A stretch of DNA of 27,595 nt. Origin: a virus. The translations under genes were made by a program, and so were the position numbers. The stretch covers positions 1 through 27,595 of the IMG/VR virus record IMGVR_UViG_3300032311_000142; one strand, 5' to 3'. Positions 10,589 to 17,263 of the stretch are shown here, piece by piece. Position 1 is the first letter of the stretch. Each line of letters starts with the position of its first letter. The notes under the pieces are model-generated. The model had not been told where the DNA came from. It made no database searches and saw only the letters and a program-made list of their open reading frames with translations.

Positions 10589-10827
10589 TTTCCATATTCC
10601 CTGCCAACCTTAACAGACACATAAACTCTATTTTTAAAGCGTTTATCTAATTCATTATTATAAGTCCACTTTGGTAATATAAAATAGCCTTGACTTTCTA
10701 AGTACTTCAGTCTAGTCCTATTAGTTGCACAGCCTTGAATAATGTCTTTTATGCTGCAATCTTTATTGTTTTGTATGTAATTGACAATAAACTTAGCCTG
10801 CCTTGCATCATCTAATTTGGTGTACAC
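10579..10827 (-). CDS. Small winged-helix-like protein, unknown
   Basis: 82 residues from a GTG start that lies 6 nt after AGGAG. The helix-turn-helix-like region CSIKDIIQGCATNRTRLKYLESQGYFILPKW suggests a winged helix used to bind DNA or as a small adaptor: a helix, a second helix for recognition, then a beta wing. The C-terminus is basic. It overlaps the FkbM gene by 16 nt. A role in regulation is possible, but no family is recognised. Confidence 0.5.
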   Translation of the reverse strand: MYTKLDDARQAKFIVNYIQNNKDCSIKDIIQGCATNRTRLKYLESQGYFILPKWTYNNELDKRFKNRVYVSVKVGREYGKWV

Positions 10828-11405
10828 AACTCACTCCTAATATATTTCAAAATACCATAATTATAACCACGCATTGTACACTCAATTAGCGTATAGTCAA
10901 GTAATAATTCATCTATACGTCTACGATTGTATGCACTATGAAACTCTATAAGAAAGACTATAGGAAAGTGCACTAAGTTTTCAAGTATCTCAATCTCTGC
11001 ACCCTCTGTATCAATCTTAATGATGTCACAAGCTGGAAGATGTTTGGCTGACATTACCTTTACTATCTCACCTTCTTTGGCCTGTTCTTCGCCTGCAAAC
11101 ATACTAGCTTCACCACAGTTATGAAGGCCATAATACATCTGACGTTCACCATCTTCTTTACCTATAGCAAAGTTCCTAATGGCTATATCAGTACCTGCTG
11201 TATTTTGTCTAAGCAAATTAAAGTTTTCTTTTATAGGCTCATAACAATCTATCTTTGGTCGTTCAAAGTACTCATGTGCCCAAACTGCAAATCCACCTAC
11301 GTTAGCACCAATATCTATAATGTATGGTTCTTTCATAGCACCAATAGCATATTCACCTTGAAATATTTTACCTACATGACTAATCATATTATTAGGAATA
11401 ATCAT
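10812..11405 (-). CDS. FkbM-family SAM-dependent methyltransferase
   Basis: 197 residues. The SAM-binding motif I is YIIDIGANVGGFAVWA (31-39 core), motif II has CYEPIKENFNLL with acidic Glu56, and the FkbM signature CDIIKIDTEGAEIEILENL lies at ~126-143. FkbM enzymes put methyl groups on sugar hydroxyls or other small acceptors. The family is usually 150-260 residues, so this is full length. It shares ATGA with the upstream oxygenase gene and sits in a cassette with two 2OG-Fe(II) oxygenases and a glycosyltransferase. This suggests modification of a glycan or of a glycosylated virion or envelope component. The acceptor is unknown. Confidence 0.88.
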   Translation of the reverse strand: MIIPNNMISHVGKIFQGEYAIGAMKEPYIIDIGANVGGFAVWAHEYFERPKIDCYEPIKENFNLLRQNTAGTDIAIRNFAIGKEDGERQMYYGLHNCGEASMFAGEEQAKEGEIVKVMSAKHLPACDIIKIDTEGAEIEILENLVHFPIVFLIEFHSAYNRRRIDELLLDYTLIECTMRGYNYGILKYIRSELCTPN

Positions 11406-11947
11406 ACATTATTATCAATAACAAAAATATAATTAACTACTCTTCTTATATTGTTACCTGTAGGAGGTGTTGCTCTATGTTCTATATTAGATCTAAATAA
11501 AATAGCATCACCTGCTGTAGGCTTATAACTTTTAATACCTTCATCTGTTTTAAATACAGTATCACCATCAGAGTCATCTACAAAGTAAAGTAAAGTATAA
11601 TAGTTATCAAACTTAGTATCAGTATGCCAACTTTTTTCTAAATCCTCTGGAGTATAGCTTTGTACTGGTAAAAAATTAGTTTTAATTCTATGAAGAAGTT
11701 TTATATCAGTACCTATTCTTTCATTTAATAATTTTATTAAATAGGTAAAAAAATGTATATATCTACAAATTACATGACCTTCTTGTATAGTTCCATGTGT
11801 AAATTGGTAAATATTATCTTCAGTATCATGTTCATAAGAACTATGTTTATTAAACCCCCAAGCAAAGTCATGTGAGTCTAAAAGTTCTTTTATTTTAATT
11901 TTAAACTCTTCAGAACCTAAATCTTTTAAATATATAAATTTATCCAT
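11402..11947 (-). CDS. 2-oxoglutarate/Fe(II)-dependent dioxygenase (prolyl-hydroxylase-like fold)
   Basis: 181 residues. The iron triad is His108 and Asp110 in SWHTDTKFD and His157 in NIEHRATPP. Arg168 or Arg169 (NIRRVVNYIFV) is in place to bind the 2-oxoglutarate carboxylate. GDAILFRSNIEHR is the typical strand before the distal His. Such enzymes hydroxylate a C-H bond using O2 and 2-oxoglutarate. Phage homologues are common in marine and freshwater viruses, with substrates mostly unknown. It starts 1 nt inside the upstream unknown gene's stop region and overlaps FkbM by ATGA. Local base composition is strikingly A+T-rich. Confidence 0.85.
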   Translation of the reverse strand: MDKFIYLKDLGSEEFKIKIKELLDSHDFAWGFNKHSSYEHDTEDNIYQFTHGTIQEGHVICRYIHFFTYLIKLLNERIGTDIKLLHRIKTNFLPVQSYTPEDLEKSWHTDTKFDNYYTLLYFVDDSDGDTVFKTDEGIKSYKPTAGDAILFRSNIEHRATPPTGNNIRRVVNYIFVIDNNV

Positions 11948-12681
11948 TATTTACTTCCAAATCCAAAAGGACATTTCTTTTTAGACTCTTGATCATCTAT
12001 TACTTTTTTATATTTATTATAGTTAAGACTAAAAGCAATTTGAGGTACTTTATTTTTATTCCATTCATTTATTGATATTACATGGTATTTAAATTCAATT
12101 TCTTTTTCTGTAAGAGGTATAAATTGAAGTATAGGACTATTAAATTTTAATATAGTTTCAAAGTTTTTTTCCATATCAACAAACATATTAACATTAGTAC
12201 CTGATTGGTATTTAAAATTAAGTATACCTTCTGGAATAAAAAAAGGTTCTTGAAGTTTAAAATTCCAAAAGGGTTTTTGAACTACCCAATTAATAGCTTC
12301 TTTTGTTTTTAACAACCAAGGTGAGTTTAATTTAATATGTTTATACTGTTTAGGATCAGCATAAGTTTTCCATTGTTCTTCTGGGTGTGGACTTACAGGA
12401 GTTTCCCTATCTGCAGGATAAGAAGTTAAATTTCCATTCTCTGCATTAATAATAAACTCTGTCCATAAAGGCATAATAAAACTATTTTTATATAGATCAA
12501 TAATGCCAGAACATTGTTTAATAGTTGACTCTTTTATAATACTATGGCCATAACTATTAGGTGTATTTTTAAACCACTCAGGCCAGTGTTTAGATGCTCG
12601 TTCTATTGGTGATAAATTAATATATTTTTCATCAGTAACAAAAGCATCTACTATTATTTTATTTCTTTTAAAGAAAAACAT
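11947..12681 (-). CDS. Unknown protein between two dioxygenase genes
   Basis: 244 residues, starting 6 nt after AGGAG. It is rich in aromatic residues and Lys/Asn. Recognisable segments are RASKHWPEWFKNTPNSYG near the N-terminus, IIDLYKNSFIMPLWTEFII at ~60-78 and FKYHVISINEWNKN near the C-terminus. I recall similar 220-260 residue proteins beside 2OG-Fe(II) oxygenase genes in cyanophage genomes (one such group is DUF6065), but the assignment is not secure. There is no Fe triad, Walker or SAM motif. It is probably a partner of the flanking enzymes, judged only by its position. G+C is very low. Confidence 0.6.
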   Translation of the reverse strand: MFFFKRNKIIVDAFVTDEKYINLSPIERASKHWPEWFKNTPNSYGHSIIKESTIKQCSGIIDLYKNSFIMPLWTEFIINAENGNLTSYPADRETPVSPHPEEQWKTYADPKQYKHIKLNSPWLLKTKEAINWVVQKPFWNFKLQEPFFIPEGILNFKYQSGTNVNMFVDMEKNFETILKFNSPILQFIPLTEKEIEFKYHVISINEWNKNKVPQIAFSLNYNKYKKVIDDQESKKKCPFGFGSK

Positions 12682-12683
12682 TA

Positions 12684-13346
12684 TTACTCCTTAAAGTATT
12701 TAGTAACATCAAATTCAAAGTTACCAGATACAGAGATTCTGTAATCATCAGATGTATAAAAAGGATATACTTGATGATTTAAATTAGCTGGAAATACTAT
12801 TAGTCTATTGTTCCATCTTTTATCTGCTGGTATTTGAAATGTTTCTATTTGGTTATTGGGACTATAAAATACAAACTGAAAATTAGCAGGGTAGCATGAA
12901 TTAGAATTTATACTAGAAGGTCTAGCCATTTCTTCATTTATATCATAAGGTATATTTATCCATAGTACAAAACTAAATGTACCACTATGTATATGAAGTG
13001 GATTAAACTCATGTTTTTTCATAAAGTTTACCCAAACTTTTGTAAGACTATAAGGAAAGAACTCTTTATTAATAGCAACATCATGAACAACTCCTACTCT
13101 TTCTTGAAGTTCTATAATATAAGGTTTAATAAGATTTGAAATATTTTTTTTAGAAACAGTTAATGTATATTCATTTTCTAAATTACCTGCTAAATCTTTA
13201 TGAAAAACAGCAGTTTCAAAATTTTCTTGTATTGTTTTTATTTCATTTTTAATTGGTTTTAGTTCTTCTTCAGTAAGTTCTACCTGTAAAAACCCTACAC
13301 GATTTCCTAAATTTCCTATGTTATAATTATGTATTTTAATAGTCAT
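12684..13346 (-). CDS. Putative 2OG-Fe(II) oxygenase (phage type)
   Basis: 220 residues. Candidate iron ligands are His118 and His120 in NPLHIHSGTFSFVLWI and the distal His191 in FPANLNHQVYPF. Arg203 in DDYRISVSGNFEF is the likely 2-oxoglutarate anchor. The pattern 'HxH-SG-...-FP..L.H.V.P....R.S.S.N' is that of the phage 2OG-FeII_Oxy_5 group, which departs from the classical HxD. The N-terminal 90 residues are a variable helical region. There is no Shine-Dalgarno sequence before the ATG, unlike its neighbours, and a 26-nt A+T-rich gap separates it from the upstream glycosyltransferase. Confidence 0.72.
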   Translation of the reverse strand: MTIKIHNYNIGNLGNRVGFLQVELTEEELKPIKNEIKTIQENFETAVFHKDLAGNLENEYTLTVSKKNISNLIKPYIIELQERVGVVHDVAINKEFFPYSLTKVWVNFMKKHEFNPLHIHSGTFSFVLWINIPYDINEEMARPSSINSNSCYPANFQFVFYSPNNQIETFQIPADKRWNNRLIVFPANLNHQVYPFYTSDDYRISVSGNFEFDVTKYFKE

Positions 13347-13372
13347 TTATTATTTTTTACATATAAAAATCA

Positions 13373-14104
13373 TTATACAAGTCTACCACTAAATTGATAA
13401 GTACCTGTGTGTCCTAGTTGAGCCCATGCTGCACCCCAAACTTTTATACCATTATCACGAGCTAATTTACAGAAATGATAATCTTCACTTAATAAATGAT
13501 TTTGCTCATCTATGCTAGTGGTAAAATATTCTGTAATCTTATCACCCATATTTGAATTGTCATTAACATCATTCATATTATGTTTATAAGATGGACATTT
13601 ATCTTTTAACTTTTCAAATACCTCACGTTTAATTAACATAAATCCAGTACCGCCATGTTTAATTTCAAATGGTTTATCTAATGGCACTAACTGTGACTTA
13701 ACATCGCCAACCATGTTTACTACATACTCACCTGTAAAATATTTTAGTTGATCCTGTGGCACTTTCTTTTCAATAGCATAAGCCACACCACCCCAGTTAA
13801 TTTCTTTTTTAGGGTACAGGCCACATATAATTTCTACGTCAGAATCAATCATCTTTAATAAATGCTGTGCTTCAAATTGAATGTCAGCATCAATAAACAT
13901 TAAGTGTGTAGCATCGCCCTTTAAGAAGTCATTCACCAAAGTATTGCGACCTCTAGTAATAAGGCTTTCATTATAAAGAAATGAAAAGTATGCCTCTATG
14001 TCTTTAGCATTTAGCCATGCTTGCAGTTTAAGCATAGATTCTAGATAAGTACCATAACATAATCCACCATACATAGGTGTTGCAATAAATAAATTTGTTT
14101 TCAT
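13373..14104 (-). CDS. Glycosyltransferase-like protein (GT-A fold)
   Basis: 243 residues. It begins TNLFIATPMYGGLCYGTY, has RGRNTLVNDFL at ~51-61 and the metal/nucleotide-sugar motif LMFIDADIQF with Asp72-x-Asp74. These are features of GT-A family transferases. The region IICGLYPKKEINW and the GFMLIKREVFEKL strand also fit. It would move a sugar from a nucleotide donor to an unknown acceptor. An AAGGAAG ribosome site and ATGA overlap link it to the upstream lipoprotein gene. With FkbM and the two oxygenases it forms a likely glycan or protein modification set. Confidence 0.75.
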   Translation of the reverse strand: MKTNLFIATPMYGGLCYGTYLESMLKLQAWLNAKDIEAYFSFLYNESLITRGRNTLVNDFLKGDATHLMFIDADIQFEAQHLLKMIDSDVEIICGLYPKKEINWGGVAYAIEKKVPQDQLKYFTGEYVVNMVGDVKSQLVPLDKPFEIKHGGTGFMLIKREVFEKLKDKCPSYKHNMNDVNDNSNMGDKITEYFTTSIDEQNHLLSEDYHFCKLARDNGIKVWGAAWAQLGHTGTYQFSGRLV

Positions 14105-14238
14105 TTAACTTCCTTTTGTTTTTCTTTATAAACGTCTATAGCTTTATTAGTAATAACAGTTGATGCAACATTTAACGCAATGTCTGCACATCCACTAATG
14201 CCCAATAGGATAAAGATTACTATTATATTTTTTAACAT
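14101..14238 (-). CDS. Small lipoprotein
   Basis: 45 residues. The N-terminus MLKNIIVIFILLGISGC is a lipoprotein signal ending in a lipobox (ISGC, lipidated Cys17). The mature part is only 29 residues (CADIALNVASTVITNKAIDV then a charged KEKQKEVK tail), forming one amphipathic helix. Size and topology resemble outer-membrane spanin subunits (Rz1), although Rz1 proteins are often Pro-rich and this is not. The gene overlaps the upstream 77-residue gene by 44 nt and shares ATGA with the glycosyltransferase. It is two genes downstream of a SleB-like wall hydrolase. Confidence 0.65.
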   Translation of the reverse strand: MLKNIIVIFILLGISGCADIALNVASTVITNKAIDVYKEKQKEVK

Positions 14239-14428
14239 TAGTTACCTTAATAATATTTTTTGTATCTGGAATTAATGGGATAATGGTTACATTATGTAAT
14301 TTAGATTTTAAATCTTTAAACCAAGACATTTCTGTTGGCTCTGAAGTCATCAGTCCAGACCATACAAGTGCACCTGTACTATCATATTCTTCCACTAAAA
14401 ATGCAATTGGCTTAGTCACAGAATACAA
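14195..14428 (-). CDS. Small protein, unknown
   Basis: 77 residues if read from the TTG at 14428, 74 from the GTG at 14419. AGGAAGG lies 1 nt from the TTG and 10 nt from the GTG, so the start is uncertain. It has a beta-rich pattern (KPIAFLVEEYDSTGALVWSG, NVTIIPLIP) and no motif I can name. It overlaps the SleB-like gene by 17 nt upstream and the lipoprotein gene by 44 nt downstream. Function unknown. Confidence 0.5.
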   Translation of the reverse strand: MYSVTKPIAFLVEEYDSTGALVWSGLMTSEPTEMSWFKDLKSKLHNVTIIPLIPDTKNIIKVTNVKKYNSNLYPIGH

Positions 14429-14783
14429 GCCTTCCTATTTTAATATTACAGTTTTTCCATCCAGTTGGTGTTGAAATACTATCATCATAAAAATGTAATT
14501 TTTTAGGTACAGGATTTTTATATTTATTAAATACAATGGCATCAACTGCTAATGATTTAATTTCAAGATAACGTTTCTTATCAACTTCATCATGAGATGT
14601 ATCTGTTATTCCTTGAAACTGTCCCTCAGCGTAAGAAACCTCACACGAGTCCTTTCCATACCCTGCCTTAATGCGTTGACGTATAATATTCATAACAGCA
14701 ATAATTTCTTGCTGAGTTCCTGCTTCATGGTATGCAGCGTGTGCATAACAACTCATGTACAAATCTAGTGTATTAATGTCCAT
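14412..14783 (-). CDS. SleB-like cell wall hydrolase (Hydrolase_2)
   Basis: 123 residues. The motif AAYHEAGTQQEIIAVMNIIRQR places catalytic Glu20 in the 'EA' motif of the SleB/CwlJ family. CEVSYAEGQFQGI (47-59) is the conserved 'CEVV...GQFS' element and KKLHFYDD (~95-101) the late 'YFH' strand. These enzymes are N-acetylmuramyl-glucosamine hydrolases or lytic transglycosylases, known from spore germination and also found in phages. There is no signal peptide, and the domain is short but complete. It lies on the early strand, away from the holin-endolysin pair, next to a small lipoprotein. It may be a second lysis enzyme or a wall-remodelling protein. Confidence 0.8.
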   Translation of the reverse strand: MDINTLDLYMSCYAHAAYHEAGTQQEIIAVMNIIRQRIKAGYGKDSCEVSYAEGQFQGITDTSHDEVDKKRYLEIKSLAVDAIVFNKYKNPVPKKLHFYDDSISTPTGWKNCNIKIGRLVFCD

Positions 14784-15057
14784 AATTAAGTTCTATAAAT
14801 TTAATAAGTTCTTTGTTCTTAACTTTATTAGCAATCATTTTTCTAACATAGTCTATATCATAATTTGAAAATATTAAACATAAATCTCTTAGCTGGTTTG
14901 ACTTGCACCATAAAAAAAATAATGCTGACTTTTGATCACTACCATAACCATTCATTGCATCATCTACAGCTTTAAGCAATATAGCGTGTAATAATCTTGA
15001 CTCTGGTGTAATAGATAATTCTTCATTAACAGATGTCTTTATGTCAAACTTATGCAT
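14773..15057 (-). CDS. Small protein, unknown
   Basis: 94 residues, mainly helical (ESRLLHAILLKAVDDAMNG, DIDYVRKMIANKVKNKELI), with an overall charge near neutral. It overlaps the SleB-like gene by 11 nt. It is the first gene of the minus-strand group 15057-9995 and no clear Shine-Dalgarno is seen upstream. The 97-nt gap to pqqA would hold its promoter. The ESRLLHAILLKAVDD stretch is familiar from phage early-region proteins, but I know no function. Confidence 0.55.
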   Translation of the reverse strand: MHKFDIKTSVNEELSITPESRLLHAILLKAVDDAMNGYGSDQKSALFFLWCKSNQLRDLCLIFSNYDIDYVRKMIANKVKNKELIKFIELNYGH

Positions 15058-15081
15058 AGCTATTTGTCATGATTTTCTCTA

Positions 15082-15110
15082 TTTATAGTCAACTAATACA
15101 AGAGTATAAT
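15082..15110 (+). promoter_or_regulatory. Sigma-70-like promoter for the PqqA gene
   Basis: TATAAT at 15105-15110 is a perfect -10 box. TTTATA at 15082-15087 is a 4/6 match to the -35 box at 17-nt spacing. Transcription would start near 15117, giving a ~38-nt leader before the ATG at 15155. The hexamers are seen; activity is inferred. Confidence 0.6.
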
Positions 15111-15154
15111 ACCACTTAATGGCATAAGCCAGAAAACTTTTAAGGATTAATATT

Positions 15155-15226
15155 ATGTGGACAACTCCAGCTGCTACTGAAATGCGTTTTGGCTTTGAAG
15201 TGACTATGTACGTCATGAACAAATAG
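15155..15226 (+). CDS. pqqA: PqqA, pyrroloquinoline quinone precursor peptide
   Basis: A 23-residue peptide, the standard length of PqqA. It begins MWTTPA, contains RFGFEVTMY at 11-19 and ends with Asn-Lys. Glu15 and Tyr19 are in the exact positions that host PqqE cross-links and that are later excised to become PQQ. The leading Met-Trp, Pro5, Arg11 and the G-(F/L)-E-V-T-(M/L)-Y core match bacterial PqqA. AGGA at 15143-15146 lies 8 nt before the ATG, and a TATAAT promoter lies ~45 nt upstream. It is alone on the plus strand between two minus-strand genes. No pqqB-F gene is in the window, so host enzymes would have to process it. PQQ serves methanol and other quinoprotein dehydrogenases in the periplasm. 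An increase in host PQQ supply during infection is inference. Confidence 0.93.
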   Translation: MWTTPAATEMRFGFEVTMYVMNK

Positions 15227-15238
15227 TGTATATGGGAA

Positions 15239-15258
15239 ATGCTCCTAAAAGGGAGCAT
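15239..15258. repeat. Perfect 7-bp inverted repeat at the pqqA/SSB-like convergence
   Basis: ATGCTCC and GGAGCAT flank a 6-nt loop, overlapping the stop of the minus-strand SSB-like gene and lying 13 nt after pqqA. It could fold in either transcript. No T-run follows on either strand, so it is not a classical intrinsic terminator; it may block 3' exonucleases. Confidence 0.6.
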
Positions 15259-15469
15259 CTTCCTCATTTGTAGCGTTAGATGTAGTTACTTCTTTTAACT
15301 GCACAGATCCAGAAATAAACTTACCCTTAGCACTTTCACGAATCCAGCCACTAACTCTAAACTCAATACCATCTACATTTAAATTACCTGTGTAGTCTGG
15401 TCGTTTAGGATTATCACCCTTATCGTTTTTAAATAGTGCAAAACTATTTGTGTTATCATACTCAGCCAT
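15245..15469 (-). CDS. Single-stranded DNA-binding-like protein
   Basis: 74 residues from an ATG with AGGAG 6 nt upstream. The start MAEYDNTNSFALFKNDKG, then RPDYTGNLNVDGIEFRVSGWIRES and KFISGSVQL, is a compact beta-barrel pattern (SGW near the middle) typical of small phage ssDNA-binding or DUF736-like proteins. The C-terminus is acidic and ends EEDAPF. This resembles the acidic, Phe-ended tail by which SSB proteins recruit partners. It is the last gene of the leftward recombination operon, 3 nt after the exonuclease gene. Coating ssDNA for the annealing protein upstream is the likely job. Confidence 0.65.
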   Translation of the reverse strand: MAEYDNTNSFALFKNDKGDNPKRPDYTGNLNVDGIEFRVSGWIRESAKGKFISGSVQLKEVTTSNATNEEDAPF

Positions 15470-15472
15470 ACG

Positions 15473-16021
15473 TTACTCCTTAACAAAAATTGGTTTCTTA
15501 GTCCAGCGTTTAGGCTCTATGTCATCTTCAACATATTTCATAAACTCTAGTGCTAATGGCATATACCATTCAAGCCATGACTTACTTCTTTTAACTATTT
15601 CTAGTTTTGTTTCGTTTGGTGTCCAGATATAAAAATATGCACTATCAACGTCACATACTTCCATCTGGAGCTGCATTTGAAAATAGTACCTGTCTGGTAT
15701 AGCTGGATATACTTCTTGCGTGTAAGGGCACTTAATTTCAATTACAGACCCATTATAATATCCATCTGGACTAGCACCAAAAGGCAGTTCCTTATGCATA
15801 ACAAATTTGTTACCAGCCTCCACTATATCATTAAGTTCTTTTTCTAGCGTACTTAATGCTATAGGTTCATTTAAGACACCCCACTCAGTCATTTCGTTAC
15901 CTTCAAATGGAGGCTCACGCAAAGTCATCTGCCTCCATAATTTCTGCCTCTCATATACTGCTGCATATGTATTACTAGCGGTAATGACGTTATGACGTCT
16001 GTTATCTTTTAAATGACTCAT
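15473..16021 (-). CDS. YqaJ/lambda-exonuclease-type recombination nuclease
   Basis: 182 residues. The nuclease core is GASPDGYYNGSVIEIKCPY, with Asp86 and the Glu95-x-Lys97 pair of the PD-(D/E)XK active site. It is followed by YYFQMQLQMEVCDVDSAYFYIW, the helix-strand with the conserved Gln typical of the YqaJ family. An upstream G-x3-E (GVLNEPIA, Glu52) also fits. Such enzymes resect double-stranded DNA ends 5'-3' to leave 3' tails for an annealing protein. It overlaps the annealing-protein gene by ATGA, the classic exonuclease-annealase pair. Slightly shorter than lambda exonuclease (226). Confidence 0.88.
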   Translation of the reverse strand: MSHLKDNRRHNVITASNTYAAVYERQKLWRQMTLREPPFEGNEMTEWGVLNEPIALSTLEKELNDIVEAGNKFVMHKELPFGASPDGYYNGSVIEIKCPYTQEVYPAIPDRYYFQMQLQMEVCDVDSAYFYIWTPNETKLEIVKRSKSWLEWYMPLALEFMKYVEDDIEPKRWTKKPIFVKE

Positions 16022-16548
16022 GCAACTTTCTTTAATTCATTAGCAAACTCACGAAGTCTTTCTTGCATCTGTGGGCTAAACTTAAAGAACTTTTCTTTTA
16101 GTTCACCAGCTTCTTTTGCTAATACAAGTTGGCCTTTAGCCACTTCAACATCATCATCTGTAATAGGCTCAACTTCTTTTACAGTAACATCTGGAGCTAT
16201 ATCTTCACCAGAATATATGTATAGGCCAATTCCATGTAATGCAATAGCTTTAGCTAAACAACGTTGCATAGCTGTATTAACTGCAAAAGCATCTGGATTA
16301 ATAATAGCTTTGTTACGATAATCCATTACAGGTAATTGTGCTGTCATTGTTTTGCCAAAGGCACTTACAGAACAAAACACCATAAGTGTTTCACCAAATT
16401 TTGCTGGCTCTTTATATTCCCATGTGGCTGCTGGATCTTGTTGCAATAATGTATCTACAGCCCATGCCCATGATAAATATGAAAGATTATTTTTCTTTTC
16501 AATATGTTCTGAAACATCAATCTTGCGTAGTTCTAAGTACTTGCTCAT
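16018..16548 (-). CDS. Single-strand annealing protein, DUF1071/Rad52-like (Sak-type)
   Basis: 176 residues. NNLSYLSWAWAVDTLLQQDP (20-39) and the core VMDYRNKAIINPDAFAVNTA then MQRCLAKAIALHGIGLYIY are the family signature of DUF1071 phage recombinases, which have a Rad52-like fold and form rings on ssDNA. The C-terminal 50 residues are acidic then helical and variable. It anneals the 3' tails made by the exonuclease encoded next, with ATGA overlap on both sides. An AGGAGC ribosome site lies in the end of the upstream small gene. Used in phage replication, concatemer formation and gene exchange. Confidence 0.88.
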   Translation of the reverse strand: MSKYLELRKIDVSEHIEKKNNLSYLSWAWAVDTLLQQDPAATWEYKEPAKFGETLMVFCSVSAFGKTMTAQLPVMDYRNKAIINPDAFAVNTAMQRCLAKAIALHGIGLYIYSGEDIAPDVTVKEVEPITDDDVEVAKGQLVLAKEAGELKEKFFKFSPQMQERLREFANELKKVA

Positions 16549-16703
16549 TCTCTTGCTCCTTCATCTGTTGTTGGTGTAATTCTGCCATCACTTGATCGTA
16601 AAACATTTGCTGATCCATTTTCTTTAGCCTCCGCCTTATCATTGTCAGCTTTAAGATCATCTGCTGATTCTTTTAATAATTTAATGATTTGATCTAAATC
16701 CAA
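16545..16703 (-). CDS. Small acidic helical protein, unknown
   Basis: 52 residues from a TTG at 16703, chosen because AGGAG lies 7 nt upstream; a longer frame beginning at 16739 lacks a ribosome site and would overlap the TM gene more. It consists of a helix (LDQIIKLLKESADDLKADND) and a polar tail, with no motif. It ends in ATGA with the annealing-protein gene and starts 10 nt inside the preceding gene. Possibly a small accessory of the recombination set; function unknown. Confidence 0.55.
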   Translation of the reverse strand: MDLDQIIKLLKESADDLKADNDKAEAKENGSANVLRSSDGRITPTTDEGARE

Positions 16704-16906
16704 TTTATAACTCCTGTATAACATAATGCAATTAAACATAATACTATAATAATTAACTTATGTGTAAATTTTTCTTCGTCATAAGCATAATTACCATCTT
16801 TGTTATAGTCAACACCATAACGTTCTTTGTATGATCTTGGGGTCTTAAAGTCCCATTGGTTATACCAAGTATGCTGTTTATCACGACTCCATTCAAACTT
16901 ATCCAT
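16694..16906 (-). CDS. Small protein with C-terminal TM helix
   Basis: 70 residues from the ATG at 16906, which has GGAG 9 nt upstream; an in-frame ATG at 16921 has none. The N-terminal 50 residues are polar and aromatic (DKFEWSRDKQHTWYNQWDF, YNKDGNYAYDEE). Residues ~50-68 are a membrane helix (LIIIVLCLIALCYTGVI). This predicts a tail-anchored inner-membrane protein with its N-terminus in the cytoplasm. The family is not recognised. It is part of the leftward early operon, between an unknown gene and the recombination genes. Confidence 0.55.
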   Translation of the reverse strand: MDKFEWSRDKQHTWYNQWDFKTPRSYKERYGVDYNKDGNYAYDEEKFTHKLIIIVLCLIALCYTGVINWI

Positions 16907-16907
16907 A

Positions 16908-17114
16908 TTAATATGCTCCATTATGAAAGTTATCTGGTGCTATAGAATTCCATATTTCATAGTTAGGGTCAAGTATTTTTTGACTATAAAGTAAAGTATT
17001 CCTAGCTTTAGTAGCACTTTCCCATGCCCTATGATCATCTGAATACTTATAGTACCAGTCAAAACCCTTAAGGCCATTAACATAAACTACTATATTTTCT
17101 ACTGTATTTTCCAT
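16908..17114 (-). CDS. Small protein, unknown, first gene of the leftward early operon
   Basis: 68 residues, aromatic-rich (GFDWYYKYSDDHRAWESA), with a start 9 nt after GGAG. It is the first gene downstream of the leftward promoter at 17148-17175, so it is likely made early. No domain is recognised. First-position early phage genes often encode host-takeover or anti-defence proteins; that is only a general expectation here. Confidence 0.55.
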   Translation of the reverse strand: MENTVENIVVYVNGLKGFDWYYKYSDDHRAWESATKARNTLLYSQKILDPNYEIWNSIAPDNFHNGAY

Positions 17115-17147
17115 CTTTTTAACTCCATAGTTATTGTTGATATGGTT

Positions 17148-17175
17148 ATATTATGCCTATTAAAAACAATGTCAA
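17148..17175 (-). promoter_or_regulatory. Leftward early promoter
   Basis: On the minus strand TTGACA (17175-17170, perfect -35) is followed after 16 nt by TAATAT (17153-17148, 4/6 -10). It lies 34 nt before the first leftward gene. The rest of the 149-nt divergent region 17115-17263 is very A+T-rich. A rightward promoter is not clear there; TATGAT at 17225-17230 is the best -10 candidate. Confidence 0.55.
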
Positions 17176-17263
17176 GTATTTATATACGATTTATATAAAA
17201 AATATATTGCAATTAGTTTTTACTTATGATACGCTTTTTTGGCAGTTTAACTATGGAGGATTT

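Follow-up and report, generated by a model that had tools for sequence, protein, structure and literature searches.

Cyanophage psbA replaces a host protein that turns over and thereby sustains energy metabolism in infection. In biosynthesis of the redox cofactor PQQ, the leader of the precursor peptide PqqA binds PqqD, and its Glu and Tyr are delivered to PqqE (PMC10906245). Methylophilaceae carry 3–12 pqqA copies, but the other pqq genes usually occur as a single set (PMC4109929). In OM43, transcripts of the methanol dehydrogenase gene xoxF outnumber all others (PMC5120137), and more pqqA or pqqAB leads to more PQQ in acetic acid bacteria (PMC7936290). On the viral side, phage PqqA has been proposed as an auxiliary metabolic gene (AMG) for Methylophilaceae methanol oxidation in the Lake Baikal T4-like phage populations VP_266 and VP_139 (Coutinho et al. 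2020, PMC7678222), and reservoir-sediment viral contigs with pqqA, pqqD and pqqE have been reported, classed as phosphate-solubilisation genes (PMC13188868). These were the one analysis of phage-encoded PqqA and the one list of virus-assigned pqq genes found among open-access full texts; papers on the phages Venkman, Melnitz and MEP401 contain no mention of pqqA.

The locus described here lies in a linear virus record of 27,595 nt (IMGVR_UViG_3300032311_000142, analysed at full length and hereafter called the window), whose genes include a terminase, a portal, a major-head-protein-like protein, Sak and YqaJ. Positions 15155–15226 (+) encode MWTTPAATEMRFGFEVTMYVMNK in 23 codons plus a stop, with Met1-Trp2, Pro5, Arg11, Glu15 and Tyr19 in register and the E-x-x-x-Y spacing of the cross-link partners (Glu15, Tyr19). 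The peptide exceeds the curated cut-offs of both PF08042 (PqqA; 38.1 bits against 21.1, E 8.5e-11) and the NCBIfam equivalog TIGR02107 (38.8 bits against 20, residues 2–22), and PF08042 matches this gene and nothing else in the whole record. Its size also fits the PqqA class, which consists of short open reading frames of ~20–30 codons with their own ribosome site. The PqqA hallmarks and standard 23-codon length claimed in the initial annotation, which had been made from the DNA letters, were thus borne out by translation and both profiles. Judged by its sequence, the product is a genuine PqqA, phage-borne and translatable.

The gene is the only one here on the + strand and occupies a gap flanked by genes that run leftward. 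It is preceded by a divergent neighbour encoding a 94-residue protein (14773–15057, –), an open reading frame for which the PHROG search gave no match, and followed by a convergent gene for a single-strand-DNA-binding-like protein (15245–15469, –; phrog_18154, phrog_7364), a YqaJ-type recombination exonuclease (15473–16021, –; PF09588) and a Sak single-strand annealing protein (16018–16548, –; PF06378), the last of which served as the query for relatives. An antisense frame spans pqqA at 15079–15267 (–); in the Manatee Spring phage (L003:2067–2195, –) and Melnitz-1 (L008:3961–4056, –), a hypothetical protein is annotated antisense over pqqA in place of the gene itself. Further upstream, 10812–14104 (–) encodes an FkbM-type methyltransferase, two 2OG-Fe(II) oxygenase-like proteins and two phage proteins without known function.

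Expression signals were evaluated both in the window and across viral carriers. The ribosome-binding site already noted for the gene, TAAGGA at 15141–15146 (+), 8 nt ahead of the ATG, was upheld, its core being present in 120/120 distinct viral pqqA upstreams among the matches listed, against 4% at other upstream positions. The promoter noted at the same time fared less evenly. A candidate of the form TTTATA-17-TATAAT (15082–15110, +) matches the consensus, its TATAAT (15105–15110) is also kept in the relative L041, and (G.G or TG.)TATAAT is enriched upstream of pqqA across carriers (19%, a minority of carriers, versus 1% in shuffles); taken from the window alone, however, the match is weak, and the number of promoter-like sites near pqqA equals that in shuffled sequence (2 versus 2.0). 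Directly 3′ of pqqA, a stable hairpin (15234–15264, +; fold z-score –2.97) overlaps the 3′ end of the convergent gene and may act as a terminator; a terminator scan after pqqA found none.

Two lines of comparison bear on the host. Among terminases, those of the Manatee Spring phage and of the OM43 phage Venkman lie nearest to the window's, each at 72%, with pelagiphages next at 44–48%. The pqqA product matches the commonest Methylophilaceae PqqA at every residue (54/129 copies in the loci fetched), and the nearest host pqqA differs from the window gene at 4/72 nt. We infer a Methylophilaceae host, because of these terminase relatives and the identical peptide. Ala7 and the VMNK tail were at first taken for a possible mark of phage peptides, an idea dropped because hosts have the same peptide. 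Within this family, pqqA is present in 121/121 genomes, with a median of 4 copies (range 1–12) and at least two copies in 118, and PqqE scores above cut-off in 117/121. If the host is indeed a member of the family, PqqE would be available in the same cell as phage PqqA. The viral records themselves carry none of this machinery where it was sought: no pqqB–E gene lies near any of the 120 viral pqqA genes among the matches listed, and 28 records, among them the window and complete phage genomes, yielded no PqqE above cut-off.

To define the viral distribution, the peptide was searched by tblastn against 50,697 phage records, a comparison with viral genomes that the initial annotation had itself put forward. 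It returned 12 hits, comprising nine Methylophilales/Methylophilaceae phage records (P19250A, Venkman, MEP301, MEP401, MEP402 and four Melnitz), the Manatee Spring phage and two bacterial records labelled as Acinetobacter phage, and so placed pqqA in 10 other phage records. Pelagiphages are absent from the hits, though by TerL only the methylotroph phages are closer relatives; also absent are HIM624-A, MEP431–434 and Venkman EXVC038S, Methylophilales phages in NCBI that may not be in the collection. The gene is unannotated in P19250A, MEP301, Venkman, MEP401 and MEP402. In Venkman it lies antisense in a 211-nt gap beside the YqaJ and Sak genes, as in the window, and in MEP301 it adjoins the ERF and YqaJ genes.

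IMG/VR was then searched by a DNA pattern for GFEVTMY, so that this core is forced in every match. The pattern occurs in at least 120 contigs, and every listed match is in the PqqA frame. A second pattern, with Val16 as GTG, added at least 114 contigs (114/114 new contigs in the PqqA frame); this codon appears in about 4–5% of the first set among the matches listed, and if that set is representative, pqqA contigs in IMG/VR would number in the low thousands. Linking viral loci by at least three common gene families gave components of 67, 19 and 13 loci and many small ones. The largest includes the window, P19250A, Venkman, MEP301 and the Manatee Spring phage; a phrog_371-like major head protein adjoins pqqA in a member of the 19-locus group, members of the 13-locus group encode a T4-type clamp loader and a DnaB-like helicase, and other carriers have terminases and portals from other families. 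The classification on file places MEP401 and MEP402 in Zobellviridae and Melnitz in Kyanoviridae. The gene therefore occurs in hundreds of viral contigs from several unrelated phage lineages and is no curiosity of the one phage that the initial annotation considered. Two carriers, L602 (221-kb contig) and L625 (268-kb contig), are possibly jumbo phages. Five loci (L034, L022, L037, L088 and L125) hold viral PqqA unlike the Methylophilaceae type, and such divergent types suggest hosts outside Methylophilaceae, among other PQQ-makers.

Linkage was assessed in the window's own lineage. Contigs longer than 20 kb with TerL at least 82% identical to that of the window carry pqqA in 6/6 cases. Where Sak matches end to end at ≥72%, all 7/7 readable loci, together with L479, have pqqA 870–1032 nt downstream in the same orientation. 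Forty loci of Sak relatives lack pqqA across at least 3.5 kb, mostly with a more distant or partial protein match, and for many distant Sak relatives with long records pqqA is missing from the entire record. At the syntenic position, 7/7 readable loci retain both Glu15 and Tyr19; the mutation of these residues in related phages, which the initial annotation had named as evidence against a functional peptide, was not seen.

On these grounds, we consider it likely that phage pqqA is a stand-alone AMG giving only substrate, with expression, conversion to PQQ and phage benefit as its predicted consequences. The phage would make PqqA during infection, host PqqD and PqqE would cross-link Glu15 to Tyr19 of the phage peptide, and host PqqB, PqqC and proteases would complete PQQ. 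The finished cofactor would load periplasmic methanol dehydrogenase, and methanol oxidation, hence energy and one-carbon flux, would be sustained should the host's own pqqA transcripts fall as infection proceeds. Because PqqA is consumed, the phage would carry the component that runs out, while the host keeps the reusable enzymes. Since several pqqA copies are already present in the host, we assume here that any benefit arises from what the phage supplies in the course of infection. By analogy with acetic acid bacteria, we infer that extra PqqA may raise PQQ in infected methylotrophs. The initial annotation's proposal, that the phage raises PQQ supply and with it the activity of methanol or other quinoprotein dehydrogenases, is supported in part.

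The same peptide could in principle act against the pathway, as a decoy or inhibitor that occupies host PqqD and PqqE, slows PQQ synthesis and redirects host resources. Excess precursor could saturate both proteins, given that the leader binds PqqD (PMC10906245), but one would expect the reactive residues to be missing from a decoy, whereas the phage peptide matches the substrate made by the host over its full length, these residues among them. The retention of Glu15 and Tyr19 in the 7/7 readable syntenic loci points the same way, a comparison confined to those loci as the IMG/VR pattern search had forced both residues; overall, we regard a decoy as improbable. Still less probable is superinfection exclusion, whereby PQQ made from phage PqqA would leak out and block the surface receptor of competing phages. 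PQQ does block infection of E. coli by a phage using the PQQ importer PqqU (PMC12124388), but Methylophilaceae hosts already make their own PQQ.

Whether viral pqqA is maintained as a gene in its own right was addressed by measuring selection on codons not forced by the GFEVTMY search pattern, in 116 distinct viral genes among the matches listed. Codons 2–12 gave pS 0.49, pN 0.15 and dN/dS 0.21, and all unforced codons (2–12 and 20–23) gave dN/dS 0.18, both as pairwise averages that ignore the tree. Trp2, Pro5 and Arg11, none of which is in the search pattern, are invariant in these genes. These estimates indicate that viral pqqA is under purifying selection, with dN/dS about 0.2.

Carriage also varies among close relatives. 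MEP401-like phages have pqqA in 3/4 close relatives with enough upstream DNA, and L373, a 91% relative of MEP401, lacks it at the expected place. When the Melnitz-like L392, L394, L395 and L449 are compared with L008, ~140 bp holding pqqA are cleanly absent, with a downstream flank 96–97% identical. On this alignment, the ~140-bp pqqA segment is a gain-or-loss polymorphism in Melnitz-like phages. Because the absence is clean and lies between well-matching flanks, pqqA appears dispensable in those phages, unless it is located elsewhere.

Such clean gain or loss, together with a peptide equal to that of the host gene, is what a neutral passenger or an attachment-site copy of the host gene might also produce. 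This reading is nevertheless hard to credit in view of the purifying selection and invariant residues, the ribosome site in 120/120 upstreams among the matches listed and the recurrence in unrelated lineages. An attachment-site origin in particular was rejected, the Phage_integrase profile having no match in the window or in 27 other records. Host contamination or an assembly chimera has next to no probability and was rejected for the window's lineage: some phage-labelled records are bacterial, but pqqA is present in complete cultured phage genomes, pqqBCDE is missing from all 120 viral loci among the matches listed, and independent contigs (L041/L470, which are one contig, and L472), collinear with window positions 14,226–17,200 at 93%, pqqA included, show that assembly did not create the locus. 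The two ‘Acinetobacter phage MD-2021a’ records (L009, CAKLQF020000010.1; L010, CAKLQH020000055.1) were discarded as phage carriers, since they look like bacterial chromosome with a pqqABCDE operon, one also holding ppk. The original placement of pqqA within phage DNA, next to terminase, portal, Sak and YqaJ genes, stands, and the chimera that the initial annotation had raised as a caveat finds no support in the collinear contigs.

The stand-alone supply of substrate by phage pqqA may have a broader counterpart, to which we give little better than even odds: that phages infecting methylotrophs are generally limited by how much of a consumable precursor peptide is available, that unrelated phages have repeatedly acquired the sacrificial substrate gene without any of the enzymes and retain it by selection, and that such genes form a ‘substrate-only’ AMG class overlooked by gene callers. 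OM43 and Methylopumilus are abundant aquatic methylotrophs; if the proposal is true, viral infection would directly tune methanol oxidation, and PQQ supply would be a testable bottleneck. Within a phage guild, genes of 23 codons that routine annotation misses can be some of the metabolic genes that recur most often. Cultured pairs make a test possible, with Venkman and Melnitz on H5P1 and MEP401 and MEP402 on FZCC0133.

Compared with known systems, the phage gene is nearest to Methylophilaceae PqqA (PF08042, TIGR02107), sharing the same 23 residues and the same kind of ribosome-binding site. The hosts likewise have pqqA copies away from pqqBCDE, similar to the lone phage gene; unlike them, it is phage-encoded and comes with no other PQQ biosynthesis gene detected in the phage. 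The initial annotation had raised the question whether a phage PqqA was already on record. Phage pqqA itself was already known (PMC7678222), while what appears to be new is that it stands alone, recurs in unrelated lineages and is so widely spread. The Baikal gene comes from a single large T4-like population with a methanol dehydrogenase gene of its own (PMC7678222), whereas here a lone gene is carried by small phages of several unrelated lineages. A Baikal-like pairing with a PQQ-dependent alcohol dehydrogenase was found in only one of the viral contigs tested, G063 (locus L052, 72-kb contig), where that gene occupies 34049–35731 in a pqqA carrier whose content resembles the Baikal report. 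The reservoir-sediment contigs likewise hold virus-assigned pqqA, and the accessible text of that report gives no lineage, peptide or selection analysis (PMC13188868). The likeness to cyanophage psbA would lie in the strategy, as in each case the phage supplies one fast-consumed host component. The two differ in the nature of what is supplied: PsbA is a working protein, whereas PqqA is a sacrificial peptide turned into a cofactor.
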